Shown: positions 1-19,000 of the stretch, piece by piece
How positions within the stretch are numbered: the first letter of the stretch is position 1
Layout: every line of letters starts with the position of its first letter
NCBI GenBank assembly: GCA_016866255.1
Contig: VGMY01000002.1
Span: 1 to 64,000, forward strand
Length of the DNA stretch: 64,000 bases
Source of the DNA: Bacteroidota bacterium
GTDB taxonomy: Bacteria > Bacteroidota > Bacteroidia > Flavobacteriales_D > Crocinitomicaceae
Direction of reading: 5' to 3'
Notes under the pieces: model-generated
What the model saw: only the letters and a program-made list of their open reading frames with translations
Databases searched by the model: none
Told to the model about the DNA's origin: nothing
Translations under genes and position numbers: made by a program

Positions 1-747
1 CGGATTCGAGGTCCATCTCGCCATAAAACAGCACCATGTGAAATTGATGTACTCCGCTTGAGTAAGGCCAAGTTTGCTCGAATGAACCTTCAATTCGTTG
101 AATGGGAATTTTGTTAAAGTCTCCCGATTGCCAACTTGATTACCTTTTACCTCGGTAAATTCACCAAAATTAGTGGATGGGATAAGGTACTTACTGTAGG
201 CCTCAAGCGCAGAGCCGTGGTCCATATTTTTCCACGCTTCATACCAACCCTTTATGCTGCGTTTGGGTAAGTGGAGTTTCGGGGAATGAAGCAACCGAAT
301 GAAATCTCCCAACAATTGTTGACGTCCCCAACCATCGTACAATAAGTGGTGATTGGTTAGCAATAAATAGCAACCTTGGGGAGTAATAAACCAATCAAAC
401 CTTAGCGCAGGTTCTTGAGCCAGGTTGAAACCTTGATTTCTAATGCGGTTTTTCTCCGATTGCATTTCATCCCATGAACATTCCCTAGTAGAAATTTGCG
501 GTTTTCCATTGCGCAACGTAACCCAAACGGGTTGTTTCAAACCTGCGTAAAGTACCTGAGAACGCAGGCATTCATAGGATGCAATGAGCGTTGTGATTCC
601 GTTCAATATATCCGTGAATTCGAAGGATTTAACTTGAAATAATAACTGTTGTACGTATTCTGAACTGCTGCTTTTTAAGCTCGCACTGAGCATGAACTGT
701 TGCGCTGGTAGCAACGGAACAATCGATTCAATATCTTCTTTGTTCAT
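1..747 (-). CDS. NRPS, N-terminal condensation domain (gene truncated by window edge)
   Basis: Open minus-strand frame absent from the ORF track because it has no stop in the window. Translation begins MNKEDIESIVPLLPAQQFMLSASLKSSSSEYVQQ and contains the C-domain motif NHHLLYDGW. Its ATG overlaps the stop of the upstream NRPS gene by 1 nt (TAATG). Confidence 0.85.
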   Translation of the reverse strand, partial: MNKEDIESIVPLLPAQQFMLSASLKSSSSEYVQQLLFQVKSFEFTDILNGITTLIASYECLRSQVLYAGLKQPVWVTLRNGKPQISTRECSWDEMQSEKNRIRNQGFNLAQEPALRFDWFITPQGCYLLLTNHHLLYDGWGRQQLLGDFIRLLHSPKLHLPKRSIKGWYEAWKNMDHGSALEAYSKYLIPSTNFGEFTEVKGNQVGNRETLTKFPFNELKVHSSKLGLTQAEYINFTWCCFMARWTSNP

Positions 748-3700
748 TAAAGGTCGTTCAATAGATCATCAATCGCATGGAGATCGTCTTGATCGATGGA
801 TACGTCGATGTGAGGACGATGACCGAGATGCTTTGCCAGATATTTTTGGGAAAATTGTTCGAATGCATCGCAATACGAAGTTAGTTCAAAATTGGGATGG
901 GAACGGAACATCCAGCGCAATTTACCTTCCACGATTAAAGCGTTTATTTCAACATGGGCAAGCATGCTGTTTTCCAGGTCCACCATTGCTCCTTGCGAAA
1001 TGCTGGAAGGACGAGCCAATCCTCCCCAGTTTTCATCGAAACTTCCTAAAAAGTTGATCAACAACGGATAGCAAGGTTTCGCATACCCTTCGGTTCCCAT
1101 GTAGGCCAATTGGTAGGGAGAAATCTCCTTACTAACAACGTGAAGGTGCTCCAAAAGTTGGTCAACTGGAACATGCTCCTGGATAGGAACAGGATAAAAT
1201 TGGGTAAACCATCCCAAACTTTCTGCTAATCCCGGAATGGAATCGTAGGATCGTCCATGGGTTTCCATCATTGGTGTCACCATGGGTAAGGCGTGTTCAC
1301 CCCAGGCACCCATTACTAAGAACAAAATTTTTTCGTTGACATGCCTTTCCGCTTCCCATCTTCTTAAAAAAGTTTCCGTTCTATCCATCTCCCAATCAAA
1401 AGTGATGTAGCGTGATTTTTGATAGGAGCACGGCGACCATTCTTCCCATGGATTAAACCAGGTTTTCGAAAGGTAGGGTAAATGCGTGCTCAGTTTTTTC
1501 AAGGCAAATTGCACCTTAGCAAAAATGGAGGGTCCTTCATAGCGCATGCCTTTTCCTTGAAGTCTTTCTTTCAATTCATCTAATATAATGCGCCATGAAA
1601 ATCCATCGCAATAGAAATGGTGTATTGCGATGAACAAATAGGTTTGTTCTCCCACCGATAAGACTGCAGCTCCCGCAACTGGGCCCTGAGATAAGTCGAA
1701 GGAAGATTGGATCCTTTCGCAAACCAAGGTTATCTCTTCCGTTGTTGCTAAGGCTTCTATGGTAACCATAGGATGGATTCCTGGTTGCCAACCAGATTGG
1801 TAAACTTGCCGTAAAATGGGAAATGCAGCCAAGGTCTCGTTCACCAAGGATCCCATGGTTTCAAGGGGTATAGGCACATTAATCTCCAGTAAAATAGATT
1901 GGTTAAAATGGTTTTTATTCCCTTTATACTCCTCCAGAAACCAGGCTTGAATCGGAGTTAATTCAAGTTCATCGTGGGAAGAAACAGGTTTGTTTTCCAT
2001 TTCAAGGGTTTGTAAAAACGCATCTAAGGACGCTGCGTTTAGTAGATCGTTAATGCCAGCGCCATACCCCCAAGTATTGAGTTTGCCAATCAGCCTTAAT
2101 CCGAGGATTGAGTCCCCACCTTGTTCAATGAATCCATAAGATCCATTTAACGTTTCAAAAAGGGGCAATTCCTTGAGTTTAAGCAGTAGGGCACTAGCAC
2201 TTTGATCTGGATTCAAGGTAAGGGAATTTTCGCTTTCAAAGCTTTGAAGCATGCTAAGTTCATCGATTTTTCCATTGCTGTTCTCGGGGAACTTTTCCAT
2301 CAACACGAGGGCGTCAGGGCGCATGTAGGCTGGGAATTTCTGAACAAGAAAGCGCTGAATTTTTTCTTTCAAACGTTCGTCGCTATGTTCTATAAACAAC
2401 ACAAAGGAATGCGCGTAGAAACAGTACCTTATCCTTTTTATTTCATGGAATGCTTGGCTCACGCTTTGCTCAATTTCATGGAGTTCGAACCGTTGTCCCA
2501 AACGTTTTACTTGCCGATCGTTTCTCCCAATTAACGTAATGGCACCATGACGTTTTACGCCGAAATCACCGGTTCTGTAATAGGACCTGCCGTTGTGTTC
2601 AAAAAATCCTCCTTCCGTGTCAATGTATCCCAATGCAACTCCATCGCCGCCAATGACAATTTCACCAACGATACCCTCAGGTACTTCTCGTAAGAGTGCA
2701 TTGCAAATATGGACCGTTTCATGCTTTAGTGCACGTCCAATGGTAGGATGGTATTCTTCACTTAAATCAACGATGGTGCTGTAGGTGGTGGTTTCCGTAG
2801 GACCGTACCAATTTTTAACTATCAGGGAGGGGTTCGTTGATTTTAAGTGTTTCCAAAGGGATTCGGTAAAGGGTTCTCCGGCGCTGTGTACCACAGATAA
2901 GTGCCTGATTTCATGGGCTTCAAGTCGCGAAAGTACCGATGGAACGGTGTTCAATAACCCCTTAGGAAAACGTTCTATGGCTCGTTCTAATTGAAGGATA
3001 TCGCCTACAACGACGACTGATTTTCCTATGTATAAGCCGTAAAGGTTTTCAAACAGTGATAAGTCGAACCCTAAATTGGTTATGCTGAATAGGTGATCAA
3101 ATGATGTTGGATTGACATGGTCTTTACACGCATGGAAGAACGCAGATAGGTTTTTGTGACTTAATTTCACTCCTTTTGGCATTCCCGTAGATCCCGAAGT
3201 AAACAAGACATAAGCTTCGTCTTCCATACCAAGTTCAGGTAAGCTTCGGTTTTCCAACGATAATGCAATGTTTTCAAAAGCAAGATATGGAATATCAACA
3301 GGGATTGGCATTTGAGGGTTAGGACCTAATATCATTGTGCAATTTGCCATCGATAATACTTGCTGTATTCGATCTTCAGGCCAACTTGGATTTAAAGGGA
3401 CGTAACTGTATCCGCAACGCATTATCGCATAAATAATGCAAGGAGTCCAGTGATTTTTTTCTCCATAAATGCCGATACGACTGCCTTTTGTAGCCCCGGA
3501 AAGCACCTCATTTAATCGATATACCCAAGATGGTGTATCCGACATGGCTAGGAAGGCCTCAGAGGAAGCATCGAAAATGCTTGACTTAGTTTGCTCCAAA
3601 ACCTCATCCACTACCTCGGTCCATAAGGGAAATTCCTTTGGCTGCTCGGGTTCTATCGAAGGTTCGAAGGTTACCAGTGGCTGATCTATATCCCTTTGTA

Positions 3701-5639
3701 TACGTTCCACCATCGAGGCCACTTGGTCTAAGAAATAGGCAACATATGCTTCATTCAATAATTCATTTTGATAAATGGCCTTGAATTGATAGTGGTCTCC
3801 ATCCGGCATTATTAACAAGGTCATTGCGTAGCCAGTTCGTTCAAGGTTGTATACTAAGTTTCCCGAAATCCGCTGGCCTTTTACTTGGTTATAGGGGTAG
3901 TTTTCATAAACAAACAGCACATCGGGAATTTCCAAGTTTTCGCTGGCTTCTAAGGGAGCATGCTCAAGCGACAAGCCTAGTTGCTGTCCTTCAATTACCT
4001 TTCGGCAAATCGTGCCAAGGTTATCCTCGGGCTGCCAATTCCAGCCAATAAGGATATTTTTGATGAACAATCCTACGGCGGTTTCTGCAAACTCGGGAAG
4101 GAGAGATCGACCGCTTGAAATACCGTGAATGTAGCTTTGATGTTGTCCCGTTAACGCAAAATTGGCCATACTCAACGCACCTAAAAACACCTGTTGAGGG
4201 GTCATTCCTTCTTGCGAACAAAAGGAGGATAGCCCGGAAAAATCCCGCCTTATTTCGATTTCTGCAAAGCCGGTTAATGCGCTTCGTTGCTTGTTGAAAT
4301 GAAGCGGTGCCAAGTCTTTAAAAAAGGCTGTCTTTTCAGCCATCGGCAAGGAACCAAGTGCTTTTTCTTTTTGGTGAACTAAGTACTGAAAGTTGGGTTG
4401 AACAATAGGTTTTTCGTCGGTATCCAGGCCTTCAATGAACTGCTGGATCAACAAACCCACACTCCATCCGTCCAATAGCACATGATGGTGCGACCATAGT
4501 AGATAGTTGGCATCCAAACAGCGGAAAGACTGACATCGCATTAATTGGGATGGAAATCCTTCTTCCAGATCTTTTGTTAGGATGGTATCCACAGAATCTA
4601 CGCTTCCAAGGTCTCGGAAATCCGCTTCCCAGTCGTGCACTTCCTGAAACCACACATGATGTTCTTGCTCGACGGTTATCCGCAACTGTGGATAAGCGGT
4701 CCAGATCTTTTGAAAAGCCTGTTCCAAAACAGTCGGTTCCGGCGATTGGCTGAGCTCAAAGAGAAATTGTTCGTGGTAAATTCCACTGGCCGAAGCTGCA
4801 CGTTGTGTCCAGATCTTCTCCTGCATAATCGTTAACGGAAAACGCAGGGGTTGAAAGGCTGTTTCGGGTGCATTGACCGATTCTTTTAAGTCCCATAGAA
4901 GCAAGCTAGGGGCGTTAAGCAGGGATCCAAAATCACCTTCAAATCCTAAAGAGCGTATTTTCGACAAAAGGCGAATGGCTTGTATCGAATCTCCTCCGTT
5001 GGAAAAATAACTCTTGTTCCAGTTTAAAGGTTGCTCGAAGATGGAATCCCAAGCTTCATGGAGTGCACTTGTTTTTCTTTGCGTTTTTTCTAGCGCTAGT
5101 TGAACAATAGAAGCTCCACTATGCAGGAGTTTGCCCGCAAGCGAATCATCCTTGGGAAGAATGCAATCTACAATACACAGAGAAAGGTCTTGCGTAAATG
5201 GAGCAAATTCAGGAGAATAGAATACCTGAAATCCTTTCAAATCTTCCGATAAACAAAAAGCTATGGGATAGAGGGAAGGGTCAAGGGTCTGAGCAACGAT
5301 GATTCCTGAATCTAAGCTGGCTTGATATTGATTTGGGCTGATGACGTGCGATTTAAGGCCTGTCATAATTGCTTTAGCTCCTTCCCGAAAGTCTCCTAAA
5401 CCCGTTGTCGGAATCGAAATCAAGGTTCGGTCGTGTTGAATTACCAAAGAAATCGGAATCGAGTGCGCATAAAGTAACTCGCGTACAATGCTGATAAATA
5501 GCACTTTACCATTGTTGATGTTGCCCTTGCACCAACCACTGAAAATTTCAGGAAGCTGGAAATCTTGCGATTGCCGGCAAGTGTCTTCGGAGCTTAGATG
5601 AATGAATTGATTTTTCAGAAAATGCCCTTTATGTTCCAT
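747..5639 (-). CDS. NRPS, 1630 aa: [half C-like]-PCP-C-A-PCP-E
   Basis: PCP motifs NGGDSIQAI and QGGDSILGL; C motif HHHVLLDG; A motifs LFTSGSTGMPKG, NWYGPTETT, YYRTGDFG, NSNGKID; terminal E-domain motifs TPIQAWF, HHFYCDGFSWRI, LGWFTQFYPV, INFLGS. Specificity code read by eye: D-L-F-N-H-A-W-T-Y-K (Ala-like). Confidence 0.9.
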   Translation of the reverse strand: MEHKGHFLKNQFIHLSSEDTCRQSQDFQLPEIFSGWCKGNINNGKVLFISIVRELLYAHSIPISLVIQHDRTLISIPTTGLGDFREGAKAIMTGLKSHVISPNQYQASLDSGIIVAQTLDPSLYPIAFCLSEDLKGFQVFYSPEFAPFTQDLSLCIVDCILPKDDSLAGKLLHSGASIVQLALEKTQRKTSALHEAWDSIFEQPLNWNKSYFSNGGDSIQAIRLLSKIRSLGFEGDFGSLLNAPSLLLWDLKESVNAPETAFQPLRFPLTIMQEKIWTQRAASASGIYHEQFLFELSQSPEPTVLEQAFQKIWTAYPQLRITVEQEHHVWFQEVHDWEADFRDLGSVDSVDTILTKDLEEGFPSQLMRCQSFRCLDANYLLWSHHHVLLDGWSVGLLIQQFIEGLDTDEKPIVQPNFQYLVHQKEKALGSLPMAEKTAFFKDLAPLHFNKQRSALTGFAEIEIRRDFSGLSSFCSQEGMTPQQVFLGALSMANFALTGQHQSYIHGISSGRSLLPEFAETAVGLFIKNILIGWNWQPEDNLGTICRKVIEGQQLGLSLEHAPLEASENLEIPDVLFVYENYPYNQVKGQRISGNLVYNLERTGYAMTLLIMPDGDHYQFKAIYQNELLNEAYVAYFLDQVASMVERIQRDIDQPLVTFEPSIEPEQPKEFPLWTEVVDEVLEQTKSSIFDASSEAFLAMSDTPSWVYRLNEVLSGATKGSRIGIYGEKNHWTPCIIYAIMRCGYSYVPLNPSWPEDRIQQVLSMANCTMILGPNPQMPIPVDIPYLAFENIALSLENRSLPELGMEDEAYVLFTSGSTGMPKGVKLSHKNLSAFFHACKDHVNPTSFDHLFSITNLGFDLSLFENLYGLYIGKSVVVVGDILQLERAIERFPKGLLNTVPSVLSRLEAHEIRHLSVVHSAGEPFTESLWKHLKSTNPSLIVKNWYGPTETTTYSTIVDLSEEYHPTIGRALKHETVHICNALLREVPEGIVGEIVIGGDGVALGYIDTEGGFFEHNGRSYYRTGDFGVKRHGAITLIGRNDRQVKRLGQRFELHEIEQSVSQAFHEIKRIRYCFYAHSFVLFIEHSDERLKEKIQRFLVQKFPAYMRPDALVLMEKFPENSNGKIDELSMLQSFESENSLTLNPDQSASALLLKLKELPLFETLNGSYGFIEQGGDSILGLRLIGKLNTWGYGAGINDLLNAASLDAFLQTLEMENKPVSSHDELELTPIQAWFLEEYKGNKNHFNQSILLEINVPIPLETMGSLVNETLAAFPILRQVYQSGWQPGIHPMVTIEALATTEEITLVCERIQSSFDLSQGPVAGAAVLSVGEQTYLFIAIHHFYCDGFSWRIILDELKERLQGKGMRYEGPSIFAKVQFALKKLSTHLPYLSKTWFNPWEEWSPCSYQKSRYITFDWEMDRTETFLRRWEAERHVNEKILFLVMGAWGEHALPMVTPMMETHGRSYDSIPGLAESLGWFTQFYPVPIQEHVPVDQLLEHLHVVSKEISPYQLAYMGTEGYAKPCYPLLINFLGSFDENWGGLARPSSISQGAMVDLENSMLAHVEINALIVEGKLRWMFRSHPNFELTSYCDAFEQFSQKYLAKHLGHRPHIDVSIDQDDLHAIDDLLNDL

Positions 5640-5740: not shown

Positions 5741-5960
5741 TTAATCTTTTAGTCCGTAGTTAACAAGGGCACTTATCGATGAAATACAATGGTAGGACAC
5801 CGGTTTATTGCGTTCAAATACATCCGTGCGCAATCCATCGATGGGTTGTTGGTTCTTTAAACTCCCTCCCAATAGTACGATTTCGCCCAATCTAAAGTGA
5901 TTAACGCCTGAGGACTTTAGCAATTCGGTATGCTCAAAGGATACCGATGTTCAGCATTAA
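5741..5960 (-). pseudogene. Fragment resembling an alanine/ornithine racemase-family PLP enzyme
   Basis: Frame reads SVSFEHTELLKSSGVNHFRLGEIVLLGGSLKNQQPIDGLRTDVFER..., resembling the [IV]N-x-[LF]R[IL]GE-x3-LG segment of this family. A stop lies just upstream and there is no full-length ORF. Confidence 0.4.
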
Positions 5961-6014
5961 ACGGGTCTTTGATGTCTGTTTGTGCCCGAATGGTTTAAGT
6001 TCATGTCAATGCTT

Positions 6015-6242
6015 TCATCTTCGATGAAAACCCCCTTGTAATCCTTGACGGGCCATAGCTTGTATTAATACTGACTTTTGGGTGTCCGATAGATCTCGAA
6101 TTAGTACGGAACTCGTTGGAGCGATTATTTCATCTTGCCATCCAAGACTGGATTTCCAAATATTGCTGTAGAGGAGCTCTTGATTCTCCTTTTGTATTTC
6201 GAGAATAAAATCTTTAGCAACAAATTCATGAATTACTTTCAT
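6015..6242 (-). CDS. Small conserved-size hypothetical protein (75 aa) in the NRPS operon
   Basis: ORF on the operon strand, 26 nt after the PhyH gene; no clear family motif. Confidence 0.5.
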   Translation of the reverse strand: MKVIHEFVAKDFILEIQKENQELLYSNIWKSSLGWQDEIIAPTSSVLIRDLSDTQKSVLIQAMARQGLQGGFHRR

Positions 6243-6268: not shown

Positions 6269-7024
6269 TCAATTTTTCCAAGCAATGGGCGTTCGGTCCG
6301 TGTTGCAAAGATAAACAGGTCTCGGAGAGTCGTTGGACGGAAGGTTGGAACACGCGTTAAAGGTTAAAATCATAATTTTTCTTGAAAAATCCCGGTATGA
6401 AACTCCTGAGCCATGGATTAGATTTGGGTCAAACAGCAGCAAGCTACCCTTGGGTCCTGTCGTTTTTTCCAAACCGTATTTATGCTGGAAGTAGGATTTT
6501 TCTTCTTCAGAAAAACTGAACAATAAATCACTTGAGGCACTTCCTTCAAGGGAGTAATCGGTATGCTCATTCGCTTCACGGTCCAGGAATTCACGATGGC
6601 TTCCCGGAATGACTTCCAGTTCTCCCGATCCCTCATGAACATCGTCCAAATAAACAACGGCATTTAAAAAACAATTTTCTGGGAAATAATCGAAAACCTT
6701 CCAAAACGGAAAATCGCGGTGGAAAGGCCAAACGGAAGATTCCTGTTGGTTCTTTATATTGACCTTCGTTTGATGAAGGTAGACCTGATCCCCTAAAATC
6801 CTTTGGGTAATTTCACAAAGCAGGCGCTGCTTTTCAATCCAAGCGGTAAATTGGGGGTTGTTGTGAAAACCGTAAAGGGATCGCAGGGTGCTTTGATCTT
6901 GCTCATAAAACGGTTCAGCGCCTTCGTCCAGCAAGTCATTAAAGCTTGGTACATGGCAGAAAACTTCGGGAATCAATACATAACCCTGCTCAACGTAGTT
7001 TTTTATCAACGCTTCTATATCCAT
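6269..7024 (-). CDS. PhyH-family Fe(II)/2-oxoglutarate dioxygenase (EctD-like)
   Basis: HRD iron-binding motif in VWPFHRDFPFW, GSGELEVIPGSHRE, distal LIHGSG histidine; 251 aa. Confidence 0.85.
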   Translation of the reverse strand: MDIEALIKNYVEQGYVLIPEVFCHVPSFNDLLDEGAEPFYEQDQSTLRSLYGFHNNPQFTAWIEKQRLLCEITQRILGDQVYLHQTKVNIKNQQESSVWPFHRDFPFWKVFDYFPENCFLNAVVYLDDVHEGSGELEVIPGSHREFLDREANEHTDYSLEGSASSDLLFSFSEEEKSYFQHKYGLEKTTGPKGSLLLFDPNLIHGSGVSYRDFSRKIMILTFNACSNLPSNDSPRPVYLCNTDRTPIAWKN

Positions 7025-7026
7025 CT

Positions 7027-7641
7027 TTATTTTAACGAAACTAACCTAGTATTTTTATCACACTTTACAAAATTAAGTTCAGCATTTAAAGGCGTCCCCA
7101 CACTGAAAATATACGATTCATTTTCTGTTATTTCGACTTTTACGACATGCAAATGCTCTGAGGTTGTTGGTTTTATCGTCTTTGGGTCTTCGGTAAAACC
7201 CGTTCCCCGTAATTTAGAAACGGCTTCTTTTTCTGAAAAGGCTTGTAATATGCGGAAGGCATCTCCTTGAATTTTTTCCCAGGTTGCACCATCAAATGCC
7301 ACCGAAAGCGCTTCGATTTCTCGCTGTTCTAATTGTTCAATATCAACCCCAACCGGACTATCCGAGACAGCGACGAACACCCATCCATTCGAATGGCTAA
7401 TTGAACAATAGCCAGTATCCAAAAGGGGTTGCCCCAAAGGACTCTTTCGGAAATTGAGCGAAAGTAAGGAAGATCCAAAAACGATTTGACAAAGGTCGTT
7501 CAAAAGAGTTCGTGCAACCAAGGATTCTTTTTTGCGCTGCAGATGTTTAAAGGAGTTGGTGTAGGCGTCCTCCGAAACCATAGCCGGCATTTCAGGACTA
7601 TTAACATGCAATAAGGCTAAGTGTACTTTTTGAAGTTTCAA
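7027..7641 (-). CDS. 4'-phosphopantetheinyl transferase, Sfp type
   Basis: GVDIEQ and FSEKEAVSKLRGTGF motifs; 4-nt overlap with the upstream gene. Confidence 0.9.
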   Translation of the reverse strand: MKLQKVHLALLHVNSPEMPAMVSEDAYTNSFKHLQRKKESLVARTLLNDLCQIVFGSSLLSLNFRKSPLGQPLLDTGYCSISHSNGWVFVAVSDSPVGVDIEQLEQREIEALSVAFDGATWEKIQGDAFRILQAFSEKEAVSKLRGTGFTEDPKTIKPTTSEHLHVVKVEITENESYIFSVGTPLNAELNFVKCDKNTRLVSLK

Positions 7642-8843
7642 AACAGCGAAGGAAATTGGTTTTCAGGGTCCAAGCTTTTTTTTAGCGATTTATAAACGTT
7701 TTTTTGCCATTTTGATGCGCACTTGCGGTATCGATCGCGATGCACCCTTCCAATGCCGTGTTCGCCGGAGATGCTTCCGTCAAAATCAAGCACCACTTGG
7801 TCGAATTCAGTTTGTACGACTTCCCAAGTTTCACGTTCTTTTGCACCATTGAAAAATGCGTGAATGTGATAGTTTCCATCTCCCGCATGGCCAAAAACAA
7901 TATGCTCAAATGAACCATCCATCAGCAGTTTCGAAAGGTTTGCCACGCCCATTGCAGCATGCTTTACCGGGAAACTAACATCTAAATCTACGAAGGGCTT
8001 GTAGTTTTGTAAGTTATGGCCAATCTGAAATCTTTCTTCCATGGTTGAAGGTGCCTCGGAGGTAATTCGAAATTCGGAAGAAGCGAGGATGTCCGTGTTC
8101 AATGGTTTGCTAAACGCCGCCCAAATTACATTTTCGGTGCTCTTACTGCTGAACTTTAATGCGTCTTCCGATGCCAATTCCAGCACATAGGGGTCGTACT
8201 GGAGCCATTGCGGAACGGACTGCATTAAGGTGCTCAAATCGTCGGAGGCGATACGGTAATAATGTAAATCCGGCAATTTTGGTATGCAGCGAAGCAATGC
8301 CGATACAATAATTCCTAAGGTTCCTTCGGAGCCTATCCAAATGGATTTATCCATAATTCCTTGAGAAACCTTGTTCGACTTTCCTCCAACTAAAAAACGC
8401 TCCCCCGAAGCAGTCATGATCTCTAATTCCAGAACAGCATTACCAATTTTTCCATACTTTAGGGAGAGAGGTCCCCCTCCATTGCAGGCGAGCATGCCTC
8501 CCAAGGTTGCGCGTTCCGAACTACCGGGAATTATTGGAAATTCCCATCCGCCATTCCTCACAAAGACTTGCAATTCTTTCATCGTTGTACCGCATTCGCA
8601 TTGTATAATACCTGATTTTTGGTCATACCATTCGATTCGTGTTAATTGAGATACGTCGATGTAACATTCCTCGGACAAGGGAACAGCGCCCCCACTGACA
8701 CCTGTTAGACCCGCACCAATTCGGAAAGATACATGGGGTCGTTTGCGAACGAATTTTTCAAGTGAATCAATGGTAGGTGGCGAATAGAATTCACAGGGGG
8801 TTCCACGTAATCCCGAATAATCAGCAACATCAAACGTCGCCAT
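7638..8843 (-). CDS. FAD-binding oxidoreductase, GlcD/D-lactate dehydrogenase-like; putative 4-hydroxymandelate dehydrogenase
   Basis: PCMH-type FAD domain (RIGAGLTGVSGGAVP, IPGSSERATLGGMLACNGGG, GSEGTLGII) and C-terminal GHAGDGNYHIH and SGEHGIG motifs. The substrate assignment comes only from operon context. Confidence 0.8.
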   Translation of the reverse strand: MATFDVADYSGLRGTPCEFYSPPTIDSLEKFVRKRPHVSFRIGAGLTGVSGGAVPLSEECYIDVSQLTRIEWYDQKSGIIQCECGTTMKELQVFVRNGGWEFPIIPGSSERATLGGMLACNGGGPLSLKYGKIGNAVLELEIMTASGERFLVGGKSNKVSQGIMDKSIWIGSEGTLGIIVSALLRCIPKLPDLHYYRIASDDLSTLMQSVPQWLQYDPYVLELASEDALKFSSKSTENVIWAAFSKPLNTDILASSEFRITSEAPSTMEERFQIGHNLQNYKPFVDLDVSFPVKHAAMGVANLSKLLMDGSFEHIVFGHAGDGNYHIHAFFNGAKERETWEVVQTEFDQVVLDFDGSISGEHGIGRVHRDRYRKCASKWQKNVYKSLKKSLDPENQFPSLF

Positions 8844-9909
8844 TTAATTGTATTTCCAAAGATTTAAATAACTGGTGGACATTATTCACACCAAACCCAT
8901 CGTAGTCGTTTACTCGTTGGATGAATTCATAAAAAAGGGTTGGTCGATCGCCAATAGGTTCTGTAAATACTTGCAGCAACAACTTGTCCCCATCTTTTTC
9001 ACACAAAATATTCGTCTCTTTCATTGAAGCAATTGGAAGTTCTGGAAATTCTTTTTCTATCGCTTCATAGTATGTTTCAGGAACCTTATTAAATGAAACG
9101 CCTCGTTCTTTAAAGGCTTTTACCAACGTGATTAGATCACGCACTTCAAATGCCAGATGCTGAATACCTGTTCCGAAATGATGCTGCAAGAAAACATCGA
9201 CCTGTGACTTCCTTGTTTTTTCAGGTAAGGGTTCTACGATGACCTTGTTGATTTGGGAATGGGAACTATGAAACACATTCATTTTCATTCCAGTCATTAA
9301 GTTGGCAAAAAATTCCTCTCCAATAGTTTGAACATGGTCTAACTGTAGAATTTTCGCAAGGTAATTATTCCAGTAGTCGGATTCATTGAAGCGAACTACC
9401 GAGGCCAAGTGGTCTATGTTCAAAATACTGTTGGGGCTCTGCTCGTCATGATCTACAGACACAAAGCCAGGTAAAGGTCCAATCGACGAAATGTTTTCTA
9501 CCAATAAAATTTCGTTATCATCGAAGAGTTTAACCCTAATGCATTTGGCTTTTTCCTTGCCGTGTTCCAAACATTCAATACCGCTAAGCAATATGGCATG
9601 TTGTGCATTAAGATGCTCGAAGGCGAGTTCAATGTTCACCACCTCAACGGCGAACCTTTTGATAGAATTTCCATGACGGTCCACAAATGAAACGACGTCA
9701 TGCGCAGCAGGGTCCAACGCGGACGTAATCAGTAAATTCGCATTCCCCTGTTGAAGCCAATAGGTTATTTCTTCTCCGTGCTGTCCTTTTTGGATACGTT
9801 TACCTTTTAACGTGAAACCAAGGGCAAACTGATGCCACCAAGCCACCATTTTTCCCATCCCAACGAAAAGTTCCACGAATTTTATTCCTGAATGCTCTCT
9901 AAGTATCAC
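8830..9909 (-). CDS. hmaS: 4-hydroxymandelate synthase-like (HPPD superfamily)
   Basis: Two VOC domains; Fe ligands in NIDHLASVV, GIQHLAF and FYEFIQRV. VEP replaces the HPPD NEP motif, and GFGVNNV replaces HPPD GFGxGNF. Confidence 0.75.
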   Translation of the reverse strand: MILREHSGIKFVELFVGMGKMVAWWHQFALGFTLKGKRIQKGQHGEEITYWLQQGNANLLITSALDPAAHDVVSFVDRHGNSIKRFAVEVVNIELAFEHLNAQHAILLSGIECLEHGKEKAKCIRVKLFDDNEILLVENISSIGPLPGFVSVDHDEQSPNSILNIDHLASVVRFNESDYWNNYLAKILQLDHVQTIGEEFFANLMTGMKMNVFHSSHSQINKVIVEPLPEKTRKSQVDVFLQHHFGTGIQHLAFEVRDLITLVKAFKERGVSFNKVPETYYEAIEKEFPELPIASMKETNILCEKDGDKLLLQVFTEPIGDRPTLFYEFIQRVNDYDGFGVNNVHQLFKSLEIQLNGDV

Positions 9910-10982
9910 TATAGCACAAATTTATGCATTTTCATGAAACCCTCTTCAAGATTTTTTACAGAAGTTTTTGCTACCGCAATTCGAATTTTATGGTTGAATG
10001 AAGAAGTATCTGAAAACAAGTTCATGGGACAAACGGCTACTCCTTCCATTTCGAGTAATTTCGAACACCACTCAAAGTCGAGGATTCGGCCTTTGATTTC
10101 CATAATAGCAAAAAATCCCCCTTCAAATTCAATTCCTTGGTTTTGCAGGAATTGTTTTTTTCGCATCATTGTCCCTTTGAATTCCTTCAAATGGGCTGAA
10201 AGGCTCAACCCGTTTTGTAAAAGCCATCCACCAACAATGGCTTGAGTAAATCCCGAACTGTTCAGGCTGATGTTGGCTTTTAAAGCGGTAAATGCAGCGA
10301 GGAATTTGTCAGGAACATGCGTCATGGCGATGCGTAGACCCGGAGAGAGCAATTTCGAAAAGGATAGCGCATGGAATACCCTTTCAGGGGCTAAGGAGAC
10401 CAAACTAGGCAAGGGGGTGTCTAAAAAAAATGGTCGGTAAGTTGCATCGTCAAAAATGTAAAAATCCCACCTTCTTGCAATTTCAACAAGCTGTTCTCGT
10501 TCTGAAAGCGACAACCGTTTTCCCGTCGGATTTGCGAAATCTGCGCTTAGATAAAATAACGATCCAGGGTTCAGTGATTCAAGCGATTCCAACCAATGCT
10601 CACCATCAATAAAGAACGGTTTATTACCTGTCATTTTTACGGCATCCACGAAGCCAGGATAATAAGGATCGGTGCAAGCCACGCAGGCGTTTTTGAAAAG
10701 CAATGCGGCCACTGTGATGGATTCTTGAACGCCGTTGGTGATTATCCCGCCTTTCGCTTCAGAGAATCCATCTTTTTGAAATACCCGTTGACTTATTTCC
10801 CCCAAACAGCCTTCGGATTGATGGTAATGCAAAACAGGTTTATTGGGGAATTCTTCTAAAAACACACGATAAAAATAACCAGGATCAAAAGCAGGATATT
10901 GATCAAGTGGAGGAACCCCCGCACCAAAATTATACGGACATTCGCTGGTAGCGAGTTGGTTTAAAAAGTGAATACGGTTCAT
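9909..10982 (-). CDS. PLP-dependent class I/II aminotransferase, HpgT-like
   Basis: LHYHQSEGCLGE, DFANPTGKRLS, FDDATYRPFF, SFSKLLSPGLRIA (PLP lysine motif). Its stop overlaps the hmaS-like start by 1 nt. Confidence 0.75.
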   Translation of the reverse strand: MNRIHFLNQLATSECPYNFGAGVPPLDQYPAFDPGYFYRVFLEEFPNKPVLHYHQSEGCLGEISQRVFQKDGFSEAKGGIITNGVQESITVAALLFKNACVACTDPYYPGFVDAVKMTGNKPFFIDGEHWLESLESLNPGSLFYLSADFANPTGKRLSLSEREQLVEIARRWDFYIFDDATYRPFFLDTPLPSLVSLAPERVFHALSFSKLLSPGLRIAMTHVPDKFLAAFTALKANISLNSSGFTQAIVGGWLLQNGLSLSAHLKEFKGTMMRKKQFLQNQGIEFEGGFFAIMEIKGRILDFEWCSKLLEMEGVAVCPMNLFSDTSSFNHKIRIAVAKTSVKNLEEGFMKMHKFVL

Positions 10983-12215: not shown

Positions 12216-13055
12216 TTATTCCATTTTGATAAAAGCGACCAGGTCAGAGGTGAGTAAAGCCATTTTCCCGTAATTCAAGGTTTCAGGCAAATCGCCTAAG
12301 GTATGGTAATTTTTATTGCGGAACATGGCCGTATCGGTTAGCATCAATGCGGGTATCCCGAATTTCCAGTAATTTCTATGGTCGGACCAATCTAAACCTG
12401 AAATAGGGAAGGGTAAGAGGAGATTTTTATAGAAGGACGGGTGGCATGTATGAAGGGCCTTTAAAACGTTCCGCGCTTCTTTTCGAGAAGCAGAATTACT
12501 AACGCCTAAAAGAAAATTACCTCGGTTTCCGAACCACCAATTCAAGGCCCAAAATGGGTATTCTTGGCTGTTTTTTGCCTCACTGAAATACCCCACCATT
12601 TCCAAACAAATCATGCATTTGATGCGTTCGGGATTCAAGTGGCTAGCGTGATAATAACTCCCCATGTTTTCGGTACCAAAAAAAGGAGGTTCTTCACAAG
12701 CGTAAAAGACGAATTCCCATGTGTACTTCGGCACTAAACTTGGGTTTAGGCTTTTTAATACGCCGAGTAAAACGGCAACGGCGCTTGCATTGTCGTCGGC
12801 ACCCGGAGTGTCTTCAAAACTGTCATAATGGGCGCCTAACACGTAGGTGTCCTCGGATTTACCTATCAATCGAACGATAAAATTTTTGAATATCCTACCC
12901 GATTCATTGCTCCAAGACTGCACCTCTACGGAATATCCTAGCGTTTCGATTTCAGCAGAGAGGTACTCCATGAATTCATACCACCGTTCTCCGTTGGCAT
13001 TTCGATAATTCGAAACGGCAATTTCATGAACAATACGGGAGAGGTAATCTTGCAT
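12216..13055 (-). CDS. M28-family metallopeptidase
   Basis: LGAHYDS, PGADDNASA, ACEEPPFFGTENMG, CLEMVGYF, WSDHRNYW supply all expected Zn ligands. Its start overlaps the NRPS stop by 1 nt. Confidence 0.85.
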   Translation of the reverse strand: MQDYLSRIVHEIAVSNYRNANGERWYEFMEYLSAEIETLGYSVEVQSWSNESGRIFKNFIVRLIGKSEDTYVLGAHYDSFEDTPGADDNASAVAVLLGVLKSLNPSLVPKYTWEFVFYACEEPPFFGTENMGSYYHASHLNPERIKCMICLEMVGYFSEAKNSQEYPFWALNWWFGNRGNFLLGVSNSASRKEARNVLKALHTCHPSFYKNLLLPFPISGLDWSDHRNYWKFGIPALMLTDTAMFRNKNYHTLGDLPETLNYGKMALLTSDLVAFIKME

Positions 13056-16000
13056 CAGAAGTCGAAATCGTCAAAAAGGTCCTCTTTATTAGTTGCAACG
13101 GTGCTTTTGTTGAAGAGCGCGTTTGAGATGCGTTGCCTCCAAGCATCGAAGATTACTTGACCCGTTGACCCATCGGCAGTATACAGCGTGATTTCAATGC
13201 GATTACCGTAGTCAATAAACTGCCATTCAAAAGGATATTTGGTTATGGTTGGTTCACTGACCTCAACCTTTTCAACCCATTCTTGAGGTATTTCAAGCAT
13301 TTGATAGTTTGCCACAATGGATGTCGTAAGTTCTTCTTTATTCCAAGGTATTTCGGTCTCTGATAGCAAATCGATGGAAAAGGCATCCAGTTCAGTAAAC
13401 ATACCAGGGATTCCGGGGTGTTGGTTTACATTGGCGTATGCAATCAGTGGTGCTTGGTGTGCTACGGCAACCGATATGAGCCAAAATTCCCGATTGGACA
13501 GTGCATTACCTTTGCAATGAAGCTGAACCGATTGATATTCTTCACCGCTTATTTCTGTGAATAATTTTACGGCGCGTTTTGAGAGGGTTTGAACGTTGAA
13601 TGCTGTCTTTTTCGGATGCGTATTTAATAATCTTTCGTTAGGGTTTCCATAATTCACCGTTTTATCATCAAGGTGGTCCAACAGCCGGTTCAGAAGAACA
13701 TTCATTCCCAAACCATCCAATAATATATGGTGATAGACCAATTCAATGTTGCTTGAATTGATGTATCGAAATCGAATTAATGGATCACTCCATTGCGAAA
13801 AATAGTCTTCGGTAAATACCTTATTCGAATTTTCTGTTTGAGTCCAAGCGGTGTTTTTGGGGTCATACACTTGATCTAAACCGTAGGTTAAATAGGGAAA
13901 TTGAACAAGTACTGCCCCAACCGCTTCCTTCCAACGCGTTTCGGATATTATTTGTTGAAGTTTAACCGTAAACCTTAAAATAAATGGACTCTGACCCCCC
14001 CAATCATTTGCCAGTTCGGTCAATAAAATGGCCCGTTGTAGGTTGTTTAATGGAAATGCGCTGGGGAGCAATACATCCCTAAAAGACCGTTCATTTTGTA
14101 AAAGGTTCTCGAGCAAATTGGGGGTGTTATGTTCGATAAGTGACTTGACAGAAACAAAACACCCGGCCTTTTTTTCTAACCATGCTTGCATTTTCATAAG
14201 AAGGATTGAGTTCCCACCCACTTGATCAAACCGATCGGTTATATTAAACTGGTCATGTCCTAATACATCAATCCAACATTGTATACTCAGGAGGTTTCGG
14301 TTTAGATCCACTGAGCTCTGCACCATGGGCTTAATAAGCTCTTTTAACATTCCTCTATCCGCTTTACCGTTGCTGTTCATCGGCATGGCGGTAAGAGGAT
14401 GAAATACCTCTGGAACCATAAAATCAGGCATGCCTTCGTGGGCTTTAGATCGCAATGCTTCTAATGCTAAAGAAGTTACAACAAAGGCATGTAGGGCATT
14501 TTGATGAACTAAAACGCAACATTCTTTGATTTCGTCAATTTCAGTGAGCAGTCGTTCTACTTCGAGCGGCTCTACACGAAAACCCCTGATTTTCAATTGA
14601 TCGTCTTTGCGTCCGATAAAATGAAATTTTTTATCCTCATCGATGAATGCCCAGTCACCCGTTGCATAAAAGCGTTGTTCATGAAAGATGGGGAATTTGA
14701 GTTGGGTTTGTTGTTCGTCCTTTAAATAACCAATAGCTAAATGATCTCCAGTGGCCCAAATTTCACCCGGCAATCCTTCGGGTACTGGAGCGCCATTCAC
14801 CATAAGTGCAAGGGTTGTATTAGGTAATACCTTGCCAATCGAGGGTTGAGTTATTGCTTGCGAAGCATTTACAGGTTGTGCCGTAATGACATGGGTTTCG
14901 GTTGGGCCATAAAAATTCAATAATCGAATGGTACTTCGTTCAAGGTAGGACTTTAATTCACCTCCAATCACCAAAGCTTCTCCCGTAGTGACAATATTTT
15001 TAAGGGAAGTACATGCTTCAAAAAAATTGGAATCCCCCTCCAGTACTGCATTCAATAAACGCGCTGGTATCCACCCGAGCGTTGCTTTGTGCTGGAGAAT
15101 ATTGGCGCGTATTTTCTGTGCATCAAGTCGATCTTCCAAGGGAACTTCAACCAACGTGGCGCCAAGTGCCATGGCCAGTAGCACTTCATGAAATGAAGCA
15201 TCAAAACCAAAGGATGATAGTTGTAAAATCACCTCGTTCTGGTTTAATTCAAAAGACCTCGCATTCCATGAAATTAAATTGATCAAACAAGCATGGGTTT
15301 GTATAACGCCCTTAGGTTCTCCGGTGGAACCAGAGGTGTGTAAAATAAAGCTGGCTTCTGTTCCATGAGAAAATGCCGCAATGTCCCGGTGTTCCAGCGT
15401 AATTTCTGAGGAATTTGATTGAAGGATAATACGAACCTCTGAATTATGGAAAATGAAATTTTTTCGTTGAGCGGGATAGCGCCTGTCAACGGGGCATGCG
15501 ACCCCTTGAGCCATCCAAATAGCAAGAATACACTGGGTGAAATGATAGGTGCTTTGGACATCAATACCTACAGCTTCACCCGGTATTATTTTTAGATTTC
15601 TAGCTAATAATTCTGCCTCGCTCCAACATTTAGTGTAGGTAATTCGGCTTGTCCCTATTAAGATGGGGTTGATCGATTCCCTCATGAGGAGGTCTAGAAC
15701 GCTTGTAGTTGAATGTTGTACTATTTCCCCTGAAATCAGTGGTGTAGGACTAAAAGCACTGATGGACTTACTCATTGGTTGATCCCAAACCAAATCACTC
15801 AACCAACGGGAAAAGTGCCGTAAAATTTGGTGGACATATTTGGAAGCATAAAATCGGGTCTCATGTAAAATGGCAAGTTCGAAGCCACCTTCTTTCGGAT
15901 AAACTATCGTACTCCACGAGGCTCCTGTGCGTTCTTGAAATGCTCCAATGCGTATTCCGTAGTGCTCAAGCGTTGAATAGTCTACCGGGTAGTTCTCAAA

Positions 16001-19000
16001 AACGAAAAGGTGATTGAATTGATTTCCCTTAAGATACGCATTCATTGGGGCGTTCGCGTTGGCTTGGTCGATCTGTGATTTTGCAAAAACCTTTGCGGAA
16101 AATTCTATAAAAGAATGGTTGGAATTGAACGATAGTTGAAATGGAAGGCTGCGAATGTACATGCCCATTTCCTCCATGGCACTTTCGTCCCTTAAGGAAA
16201 TAACATTGGCGATGTGAAGTGCTTTTTTATCGAACAATAACCCCAAAAAGGAACTCCAAGCGGCCAGCATAAAACCATGTTGTGATAGATTAAGTTGCTG
16301 CAACTTCTGAAATTCGGTAAACGGAATAAAAGCGGTGGTTTTTTGATATTCCTTCTCTTGATGTCGTGCACCAAGATAGGGGATTAATGGATCATTCTCT
16401 TGCTGATCTAGCTGCTCCCTCCAATAACTAGAAGGCAGTGAGGATAGAGATTGTTTACAACAAAAAGCGATAAATGAATCAGAGGATACTAACTTTTTAT
16501 TTTCCAGCGCTTGAAGCATCTGTTGGCTAAATATCCCCAGCGACCAACCGTCTAGGATGAGGTGATGATGCGTCCAAATGATCCGGTGAACCTCCGCGCC
16601 TGGAATAATGCTCAGCCGCGTCAGGTTTTGTTCTAGGTTGAATCCGCGTTCAAAATCATGGGTTTTGAAGGATTCAAAATCAACATCGTGGAGAATTTGA
16701 CAATCAATTCGATGATCGGTGGCAACTTCCATAAGGTAATTTTCCTGTTTTCTCGCAATGCGCGACCTTAAAAGCGGCTGCGCCTCACATACCTGTTGAT
16801 AGGCTCGGTACAAGTCATCAGGACGGTATTTGGAGGAAATTTCATAGGTGAGTTGCTCTACATACAGTGACGGGTTCTCTGATTTTAAGCAATCGAAGAG
16901 AATTCCTTGTTGCGACTCTAATAAAGGAAAGTAAAAATGTTCCGGAGAATAGTTGAGTTGTTTTTTTTCATGAAAGGCCTTAACGAAATCCTCCGTATTT
17001 GCTGCTGCCGAAATGTTGATCGGGTTCAATTCATCGATGGGATTTTCACTGAATAATTCTTGCACCGAAAGTTGAAAGCCTTCCTTTTTCAATCGGTTGA
17101 TCAGACGAATGGCAAGAATGCTGTCTCCTCCATTTTGTAAAAAAGAACGTGAGCCATCGATGTTTGAGCCTAAAATTTCTTTAAAGTAGGCACTCCAAGG
17201 ACTGATGGCATTTGCTCTTGATGTTTTAGTGATGCTTGCCATCAAGGCTTTCTCGTCAATTTTTCCACTTTGATTTAAAGGGAATTCGGGGACTTGAATT
17301 AGCAAGGAAGGTATGGCATAATCCGCAAGGATTCCTCTAAAACGATCAGGGGTTAAATCCGTAACTCCTCCTTTATAAAAGGCAATGAGTTTTTCATCAA
17401 TAAACAATACCGTAAAATCACATTGATTAACTGTTTGTTTTAATGAGTTCTCAATTTCACCTAACTCAATTCGAAATCCACGAATTTTTACCTGGCGATC
17501 TCGTCGACCGAGGTAATAATACGAATCCCCAATTTGCCATGCAAGGTCGCCAGATTTATAGTGTCGCCCGAGTTCATTCTCGGCGAATTTTTCTTCAGTT
17601 AATAATGGATTTTGGTAGTAGCCATTGCAAACCCCCTTTCCATAAACATAAATTTCCCCAAGAAATCCCGGAGGTACCATAGTTCCTTCTTCATTCATCA
17701 AGCAAATCTCATAGCCAGGAAGGGCCATTCCTATATTACTTTGGAGTTCGGGTTGAACTTTGTGAAATGTAACATGTACAGTTGTTTCTGTGATACCATA
17801 CATGTTGACTATGGACATGTTTGGATAGGTCTTCATCCAAGCAGTTAAGCGGTTGCTGTGTAATTTGTCTCCTCCAAAAATCACATAATCGATATGGGTA
17901 AGTTGGTCAAGGTCTTTATCCACCAACATAAGATTATAAAAAGATTTTGGTGTCTGGTTCAATATATTAACTCGCTTCTCTTGTAATAATTTATGAAATT
18001 TGAAGGTGTCTTGAACTTCTTTTCTATCTGGAATGAAGAGTTTAGCACCATTTAACAAAGCACCCCAAATTTCCCATGTTGAAAAATCGAACCCATAACT
18101 GTGCGCTAAAATCCAGCGGTCCTCAGGCTTAAATGAAAACAGCGTTTTGCTTCCCTCAAAAAGGTTTAATAGATTTAAATGATTTACTGCACATCCTTTG
18201 GGTATGCCTGTGGTTCCCGAGGTATAAATTAAATAACACGTATCGGTAAGTTCGTTATTGATTCGTTCGTAATTGGTATGATTGCTTCGTTTTGTAGGGT
18301 CAATTATATTTCCTTTGAAGCTTGGGTTTAAATCTGAAATGATCACCTCAATTCCGGCGTTTTCAATAATAAATTCACGACGATCTGCGGATACTGTCGG
18401 GTCAAGAGGAACGTAAATCCCACCACGTTTAAGAATGGCAAGAAATGCAATAGGTATAGAGGCGGAATAGGAAGTATATACCCCAACACATGCACCTTTT
18501 TTTATGGTTAACCTTGCTGCTAAACGGTCTGACTCTTCATCTAATTCTATGTAATTCAGAACAGTTCCAAGATGATCTTCTATTGCGACATTTAAAGGGA
18601 AGTGTTGAACCATTTCTTCCCAGCGCGCAAGAAGGGAGTGTAACCGTGGTTCGTGATGAGTTAATCGAAGTTTTGGTGCACATTGAAGGGTAAGTGATTG
18701 AACGAATGATGTACAAATTTCAAGCGCTGCATCTCGGTCAATCTTCTCAAGATTCCAGCAAAAATTAACGGTTAGATTATTTCCTTTAGGACTTAATACG
18801 ATGGTCAGAACATAGTGTGGCTTGGAATAAAAATAGGCTTCAATCCCAGCGTTAAGCGACGGTTCAACCACCCAGCAATGATCAAATGCATTTGGTGTAT
18901 AATGGTCTTTTACCCAACCAGTTGCTTTTGCTTTAATTGCTTGCCTTGTTTGCGCTAACTGCTCAGAGCTCAAGTCAGAATGGACCCTAATTGGCCAAGT

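Follow-up and report, generated by a model that had tools for sequence, protein, structure and literature searches.

Probable hydroxyphenylglycine supply in a Bacteroidota gene cluster

Antibiotics of the vancomycin, ramoplanin, and CDA types contain 4-hydroxyphenylglycine (Hpg) as a key residue, the biosynthesis of which has, to our knowledge, been described only in actinomycetes. The question raised by the locus studied here, positions 7638 to 10982 of contig VGMY01000002.1 of a member of the Bacteroidota (assembly GCA_016866255.1; family Crocinitomicaceae), is whether a compact gene cassette supplies Hpg to the nonribosomal peptide synthetase (NRPS) genes around it. All positions refer to the window, the 64-kb stretch of DNA that was analyzed; the contig, 210 kb long, begins with it and belongs to a 2.34-Mb genome that is 94% complete. 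A preliminary description of the window had recognized three overlapping minus-strand genes, for an aminotransferase, a member of the 4-hydroxyphenylpyruvate dioxygenase (HPPD) superfamily with HmaS-like residues, and a flavin-dependent hydroxyacid oxidoreductase, and had likened them to the HpgT/HmaS/Hmo logic of Hpg supply. Our results suggest that the cassette probably does provide Hpg to this cluster, by a variant of the known pathway. That its products work like HmaS, Hmo, and HpgT is well supported by sequence comparison, whereas the stricter identities "is HmaS" and "is Hmo" fail, since the oxygenase lies outside the HmaS clade and the flavin enzyme is of the FAD-dependent GlcD type, not FMN_dh. 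The genes are as follows.

9909-10982, minus strand, 357 aa: class I/II pyridoxal phosphate (PLP) aminotransferase, proposed HpgT role (Aminotran_1_2 match in Pfam/NCBIfam; lysine motif SFSKLLSPGLR)
8830-9909, minus strand, 359 aa, GTG start: HPPD-superfamily protein resembling 4-hydroxymandelate synthase (HMS), the activity proposed for it (ligands H167, H251, and E328 kept; HPPD residues replaced)
7638-8843, minus strand, 401 aa: compact GlcD-type FAD 2-hydroxyacid dehydrogenase, proposed hydroxymandelate dehydrogenase (FAD_binding_4 and FAD-oxidase_C)
7027-7641, minus strand: 4'-phosphopantetheinyl transferase (PPTase) of the ACPS superfamily (Pfam/NCBIfam ACPS)
6269-7024, minus strand: PhyH-family Fe(II)/2-oxoglutarate (2OG) oxygenase, nearly always a neighbor of the cassette (HRD motif)

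The three open reading frames were confirmed, with overlaps of 1 bp (first and second) and 14 bp (second and third); the PPTase gene shares 4 bp with the dehydrogenase gene, and NRPS genes flank the cassette on both sides (747-5639 on one, 13055-19753 and 19753-22473 on the other). The gene structure, the aminotransferase assignment, and the PPTase and NRPS context of the preliminary description were thus borne out, and the cassette can be refined to include the PhyH-family gene, which belongs to it in nearly all loci.

Proposed pathway

In the proposed pathway, the aminotransferase would convert tyrosine to 4-hydroxyphenylpyruvate (HPP), and the HMS-like iron oxygenase would decarboxylate HPP and hydroxylate its benzylic carbon, yielding 4-hydroxymandelate rather than homogentisate. 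The GlcD-type FAD enzyme would oxidize this product to 4-hydroxyphenylglyoxylate, from which the same aminotransferase would form Hpg; with tyrosine as the amino donor, the cycle would regenerate HPP. The PPTase would activate the NRPS carriers, and the first adenylation (A) domain of the synthetase NRPS0 (specificity code DIAHMGFVLK) would load Hpg. If the synthetases act in the order NRPS3, 2, 1, 0, the predicted peptide would be Orn-Thr-X-(?)-[Ala-like, possibly D]-Hpg-Orn, released by a thioesterase.

Active site of the oxygenase

Enzymes of the window type were found in nine genomes of the family, the window's own and G132, G139, G142, G186, G189, G193, G077, and G101. Active-site columns were compared by motif, in Arabidopsis numbering; PDB 2r5v served to check the Amycolatopsis orientalis HmaS sequence, and the Streptomyces coelicolor row (3zgj) is one that we take to be an engineered mutant. 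The iron ligands (His, His, and Glu) were present in all aligned rows, including all nine window-type proteins, which also retain Q293, Q307, Q379, F381, F392, F419, and N423. At four further sites, where S, P, N, and F occur in all HPPDs sampled, the nine proteins have S267 replaced by M, P280 by V, N282 by V (S in one), and F424 (F364 in human numbering) by V or I. Of these four replacements, the M at S267 is the least certain because its column lies close to a one-residue gap. Rows of the HmaS clade have S, T, or I at the first of these sites, T at the second, I (V or L in two) at the third, and I (V in one) at the fourth. P, N, and F364 are therefore all replaced in the window enzyme, but by V, V, and V/I where HmaS has T, I, and I. 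The two also differ in F368, retained in the window enzyme and Y in HmaS, and overall identity is 25 to 28%. The HPPD-diagnostic residues are thus lost as in HmaS, which supports the earlier description of HmaS-like residues, although other residues stand in their place.

In HPPD, N282 and S267 are part of a network required for turnover, catalytic efficiency drops about 160-fold in N282A and about 12-fold in S267A, and the 4-hydroxyl of the substrate is bound by N423 (PMC6750108). The HPPD variant F337I, equivalent to human F364, makes some hydroxymandelate (PMC3739788). Loss of P, N, and F with N423 kept would fit an enzyme that binds HPP without catalyzing side-chain migration.

The window enzyme scored 224 bits against TIGR01263 (4HPPD), below the cut-off of 277 bits, although this was still its best NCBIfam model. 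A separate, true HPPD, which exceeds the cut-off with 455 bits, is encoded on contig C9 of the same genome, and its gene immediately follows an HgmA-like one; tyrosine breakdown is therefore served there, and the role in tyrosine catabolism that the preliminary description had named as its possible undoing was not found. HPPD-type matches are nearly universal in the 200 family genomes sampled and are about 30% identical to the window enzyme.

In trees of HPPD and HMS sequences, the window-type proteins, three Acidobacteriota relatives, and a protein from G656 (a 5-Mb Bacteroidota genome of another family, 99% complete with 0 contamination) formed one clade (100/100), outside both the HmaS clade (100/100) and the HPPDs sampled, so that the grouping with true HPPDs that would have spoken against the preliminary description did not occur. 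Support for the window enzyme's own clade was 100/99 to 100/100 across trees; on these alignments, the enzyme is a well-supported third lineage, separate from HPPD and actinomycete HmaS. A sister relation to HmaS was supported at 98/95 in one tree and at 76/92 after G656 was added and the diagnostic columns were restored. As the support depends on the columns and rows included, we dropped the sister-group claim. On a plasmid of "Candidatus Bandiella numerosa" (Rickettsiales), a gene annotated as hppD (L091 292-1623) encodes the HMS-type residues V, I, and I and is followed by an aminotransferase gene.

NRPS genes and specificity codes

The synthetase genes and the peptidase gene among them are listed below, with condensation (C), thiolation (T), and epimerization (E) domains abbreviated.

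1-747, minus strand: NRPS0, gene start only (249 aa), with the remainder on contig C34 (contig join)
747-5639, minus strand: NRPS1, X-T-C-A(DLFNHAWTYK)-T-C/E (domain and code reading)
12216-13055, minus strand: M28-family peptidase, whose gene immediately follows NRPS2 wherever that end of a cluster is seen
13055-19753, minus strand: NRPS2, C-A(DFWNIGMVHK, Thr)-T-C-A(DAHWVTFVIK)-T-C
19753-22473, minus strand: NRPS3, C-A(DVGEVGSIDK, Orn-like)-T

The last 127 bases of contig C34 are identical to the first 127 of the window, and the joined NRPS0 (2573 aa) contains two A domains, with codes DIAHMGFVLK (the first, Hpg-like) and DVGEIGSIDK (Orn-like); in G142, the orthologous protein combines C, A, and T domains with a thioesterase domain. 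The cluster has six A domains in all: these two, DVGEVGSIDK, DFWNIGMVHK, DAHWVTFVIK, and DLFNHAWTYK (Ala-like). The second condensation-type domain of NRPS1 is read as an epimerase, as judged by eye from HHFYCDGFSW. In G193, NRPS1 carries another code, DFTKIGEVGK (Asn-like).

Codes for Hpg, dihydroxyphenylglycine (Dpg), and tyrosine or β-hydroxytyrosine (Tyr/Bht) were taken from domains extracted from the A40926 (dbv) and Streptomyces chartreusis clusters and assigned via the known modules of these clusters; the other labels (Orn-like, Thr, Ala-like, etc.) follow a code table that we presume to be correct. The extracted Hpg codes are DIFHLGLLCK, DALHLGLLCK, and DAFHLGLLCK. Within a wider comparison table, likewise presumed accurate, DIAHMGFVLK was nearest to the Hpg-like code DVYHLGLVFK of Streptomyces finlayi, from a cluster with HMS, a GlcD-type oxidase, and an aminotransferase, and to the extracted Hpg codes (BLOSUM sums of 21 and 18; best outside this group, 13). 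It has D235, I236, H278, G301, and K517 in common with DIFHLGLLCK. In G656, two A domains read DIFHFGLIFK, which matches DIFHLGLLCK at 7 of 10 positions.

Across the 200-genome family sample, an Hpg-like A domain (E ≤ 1e-50) was found in seven genomes, all of them among the nine bearing the enzyme; in the two that lack it, G101 and G132, the enzyme copies lie on short, broken contigs. The nominal P value of this co-occurrence is about 1e-11 with relatedness ignored, and inheritance of the cluster as a block would give the same pattern. Together with the residues of the oxygenase and the Hpg-like codes in the window cluster and G656, this co-occurrence argues for the HpgT/HmaS/Hmo-type supply logic that the preliminary description had suggested.

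Recurrence of the gene order

Judged apart from genes cut by contig ends, the order aminotransferase, HMS-like enzyme, and GlcD-type enzyme, usually followed by PPTase and PhyH, recurs in G142, G139, G193, G189, G186, G077, G101, L051, L053/G362, L054/G273, and L059. The variations are no aminotransferase gene directly before the HMS-like gene in L054/G273, an amidase instead of the PhyH match in L053/G362, no PPTase gene adjoining GlcD in G077 and G101, and PPTase and PhyH fused into one gene in G193. The dehydrogenase gene directly follows the HMS-like gene in all Bacteroidota loci reaching that far, and NRPS genes are nearby in the majority of loci with contigs of sufficient length to show them; in G077, the NRPS0-type domain is located on a separate contig. 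A phylum-wide sample of 396 genomes added one match, G656, where the same three genes (26%, 39%, and 26% identity to the window's, respectively) keep this order and are flanked by the large NRPS genes that encode the two DIFHFGLIFK domains. As the order recurs both in other Bacteroidota loci and in the distant G656, the arrangement is not due to chance.

The close relatives are metagenome-assembled genomes (MAGs), several of them named Flavobacteriales; some record names (Chryseobacterium, Planktophila, and Saprospira) look unreliable, while others (e.g., LacPavin) point to a lake origin. Two conserved genes of 335 to 354 aa upstream of the aminotransferase gene in G142 and G077, considered as pyruvate-dehydrogenase-like Pgl subunits, proved to encode a WbsX-type glycosyltransferase and a second PhyH-family protein.

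The aminotransferase, the flavin enzyme, and known Hpg systems

The aminotransferase is the sole copy of its kind in the genome and scored 65 bits against those of S. chartreusis and S. finlayi, versus 58 bits against the best PDB chain. The flavin enzyme is of the GlcD/D-2-hydroxyglutarate dehydrogenase (GlcD/VAO) type, with motifs GHAGDGNYH and SGEHGIG and with FAD_binding_4 and FAD-oxidase_C over the Pfam cut-offs, the C-terminal domain match being partial. Its description as a flavin-dependent hydroxyacid oxidoreductase holds; homology with Hmo was ruled out because it has this FAD-dependent GlcD type and no FMN_dh domain, which the likely Hmo, encoded next to the dbv HmaS gene, does carry.

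GlcD-type enzymes characterized so far act on D-hydroxyacids or glycolate. In the actinomycete pathway, HmaS produces the S form of hydroxymandelate and Hmo oxidizes it (PMC6677016), and this difference raises the question of (R)-4-hydroxymandelate. A GlcD-type partner alone does not prove the R form, since Streptomyces clusters with enzymes of the HmaS clade also have GlcD-type oxidases. We regard it as possible but doubtful that a separately evolved HMS lineage in Bacteroidota (and Acidobacteriota), paired with a GlcD-type dehydrogenase, leads to Hpg via (R)- rather than (S)-4-hydroxymandelate.

The cassette shares with the actinomycete Hpg systems (HmaS, Hmo, and HpgT; vancomycin, A40926, and CDA types) the chemical logic, tight gene grouping, NRPS context, an A code with H278 and G301, and an oxygenase with N and F364 exchanged for aliphatic residues. 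Besides the separate oxygenase lineage, with M/V/V/V-I instead of S/T/I/I, and the different flavin enzyme, it differs from them in its phylum, in the added PhyH gene, and in having no prephenate dehydrogenase gene in the cassette. Clusters in S. finlayi NBSH44 and Streptomyces sp. NBC_00887 likewise combine HMS, a GlcD-type FAD oxidase, a PLP aminotransferase, and NRPS genes, but their HMS belongs to the HmaS clade, the gene order differs, and an Asp/Glu racemase and MbtH are present. Plasmid p1 of Streptomyces angustmyceticus (L073 7986-14632) encodes consecutively an HMS, an alpha-hydroxyacid oxidase, a PhyH-family protein, an aminotransferase, a DMT transporter, and a prephenate dehydrogenase, with no NRPS annotated within the 17 kb examined. 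Orthology of the window PhyH protein with the one beside HMS and Hmo there is not claimed (22% identity; E = 2e-5).

Contrary evidence and alternative explanations

Several observations weigh against Hpg supply. The oxygenase falls outside the HmaS clade; the sister grouping of its lineage with HmaS disappears once six diagnostic columns are masked and the long rows QuiC and Bandiella are omitted, and approximately unbiased (AU) tests reject neither a placement on the HmaS side nor one on the HPPD side. The aminotransferase and GlcD-type enzyme resemble their actinomycete counterparts no clearly more than other family members. DIAHMGFVLK has only 5 of its 10 positions in common with the canonical Hpg code, two of them near invariant, and its domain may select phenylglycine (Phg) or a related aryl residue. 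An AlphaFold model of the HMS-like protein, built from an 8-row alignment, reached a pLDDT of 56 and was discarded unused.

The Acidobacteriota relatives, in Sulfidibacter, Acanthopleuribacter, and a Holophagae MAG (L057, L058, and L061), count here as well. They belong to the same lineage as the window enzyme (36 to 37% identity; V/V/V pocket) and also have an NRPS context, but they lie between an HpaB hydroxylase gene upstream and the NRPS genes, with a PepSY_TM protein also upstream and, in Acanthopleuribacter, a TonB receptor. Their 10-kb flanks contain no aminotransferase or GlcD gene, and the NRPS stretches read contain Lys/Pro/Phe-like codes and no Hpg-like code; the clade as a whole therefore need not serve Hpg. 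The lineage may serve more than Hpg, and the Acidobacteriota cluster looks siderophore-type, possibly with a modified tyrosine-derived unit.

Among the alternatives, the one that survives best, though we consider it unlikely, is that the product of the cassette is not Hpg itself but Phg or a different arylglycine, formed from phenylpyruvate or from HPP in modified form. Phenylpyruvate and substituted analogues are also substrates of Hms enzymes (PMC3720870). The pocket of the window enzyme is more hydrophobic than that of HPPD, and the PhyH gene, joined in sister clusters by a methyltransferase gene, could modify the ring or side chain. Set against this are the retained N423, which in HPPD binds the hydroxyl of HPP, the near-canonical Hpg codes in G656, and His278 in the A code, common to every real Hpg domain extracted, where the Phg code, as we take it, has Leu.

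Less probable still is a diverged HPPD whose product, homogentisate, would feed tyrosine catabolism or serve as a peptide or pigment precursor. The enzyme shares with HPPD the superfamily, the iron ligands, and most pocket residues; 4HPPD is its best model, albeit under the cut-off, a placement on the HPPD side is compatible with the AU tests, and the Acidobacteriota relative adjoins HpaB. Yet the N and F required for homogentisate formation are replaced, S and P are likewise gone, the lineage is separate and deep, the true HPPD-HgmA pair lies elsewhere in the genome, and the setting is one of NRPS genes with a hydroxyacid dehydrogenase gene directly following. We give similarly little credence to a one-carbon shortening of another 2-oxo acid (not Tyr/HPP) for a different nor-amino acid, or to direct use of the hydroxy acid: the same chemistry could work on other 2-oxo acids, and DAHWVTFVIK and DLFNHAWTYK have no firm amino acid assignment, but both cluster types have Hpg-like or near-canonical Hpg codes, the aromatic contacts and those to the HPP hydroxyl are retained, and the aminotransferase and dehydrogenase genes speak against a hydroxy acid that is kept as such.

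If Hpg supply by this cassette is correct, it would represent a second, sequence-distant route to Hpg, with a pathway logic not limited to one phylum, and would offer new enzymes for arylglycine production and pointers to unexplored peptide families. It would allow a test of whether HMS activity evolved from HPPD a single time or twice, through which substitutions, and with what stereochemistry. Annotation pipelines would probably assign such genes to tyrosine catabolism (with 276.3 bits, the G656 enzyme falls just short of the HPPD cut-off of 277), and the finding would help to correct this. A literature search, with most subscription journals outside its scope, returned no work joining hydroxyphenylglycine with a Bacteroidota producer.

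Gene remnants in the cluster

The methyltransferase of the sister clusters has no match within window positions 1 to 25000. Between the PhyH gene and NRPS1, the minus strand at 5741-6242 contains remnants of two genes that are intact in the sister clusters: the N terminus of a 2OG-Fe(II) oxygenase (6242-6039; 60% to L055:14319-14834) and the C terminus of an ornithine-racemase-like protein of about 230 aa (5950-5774).

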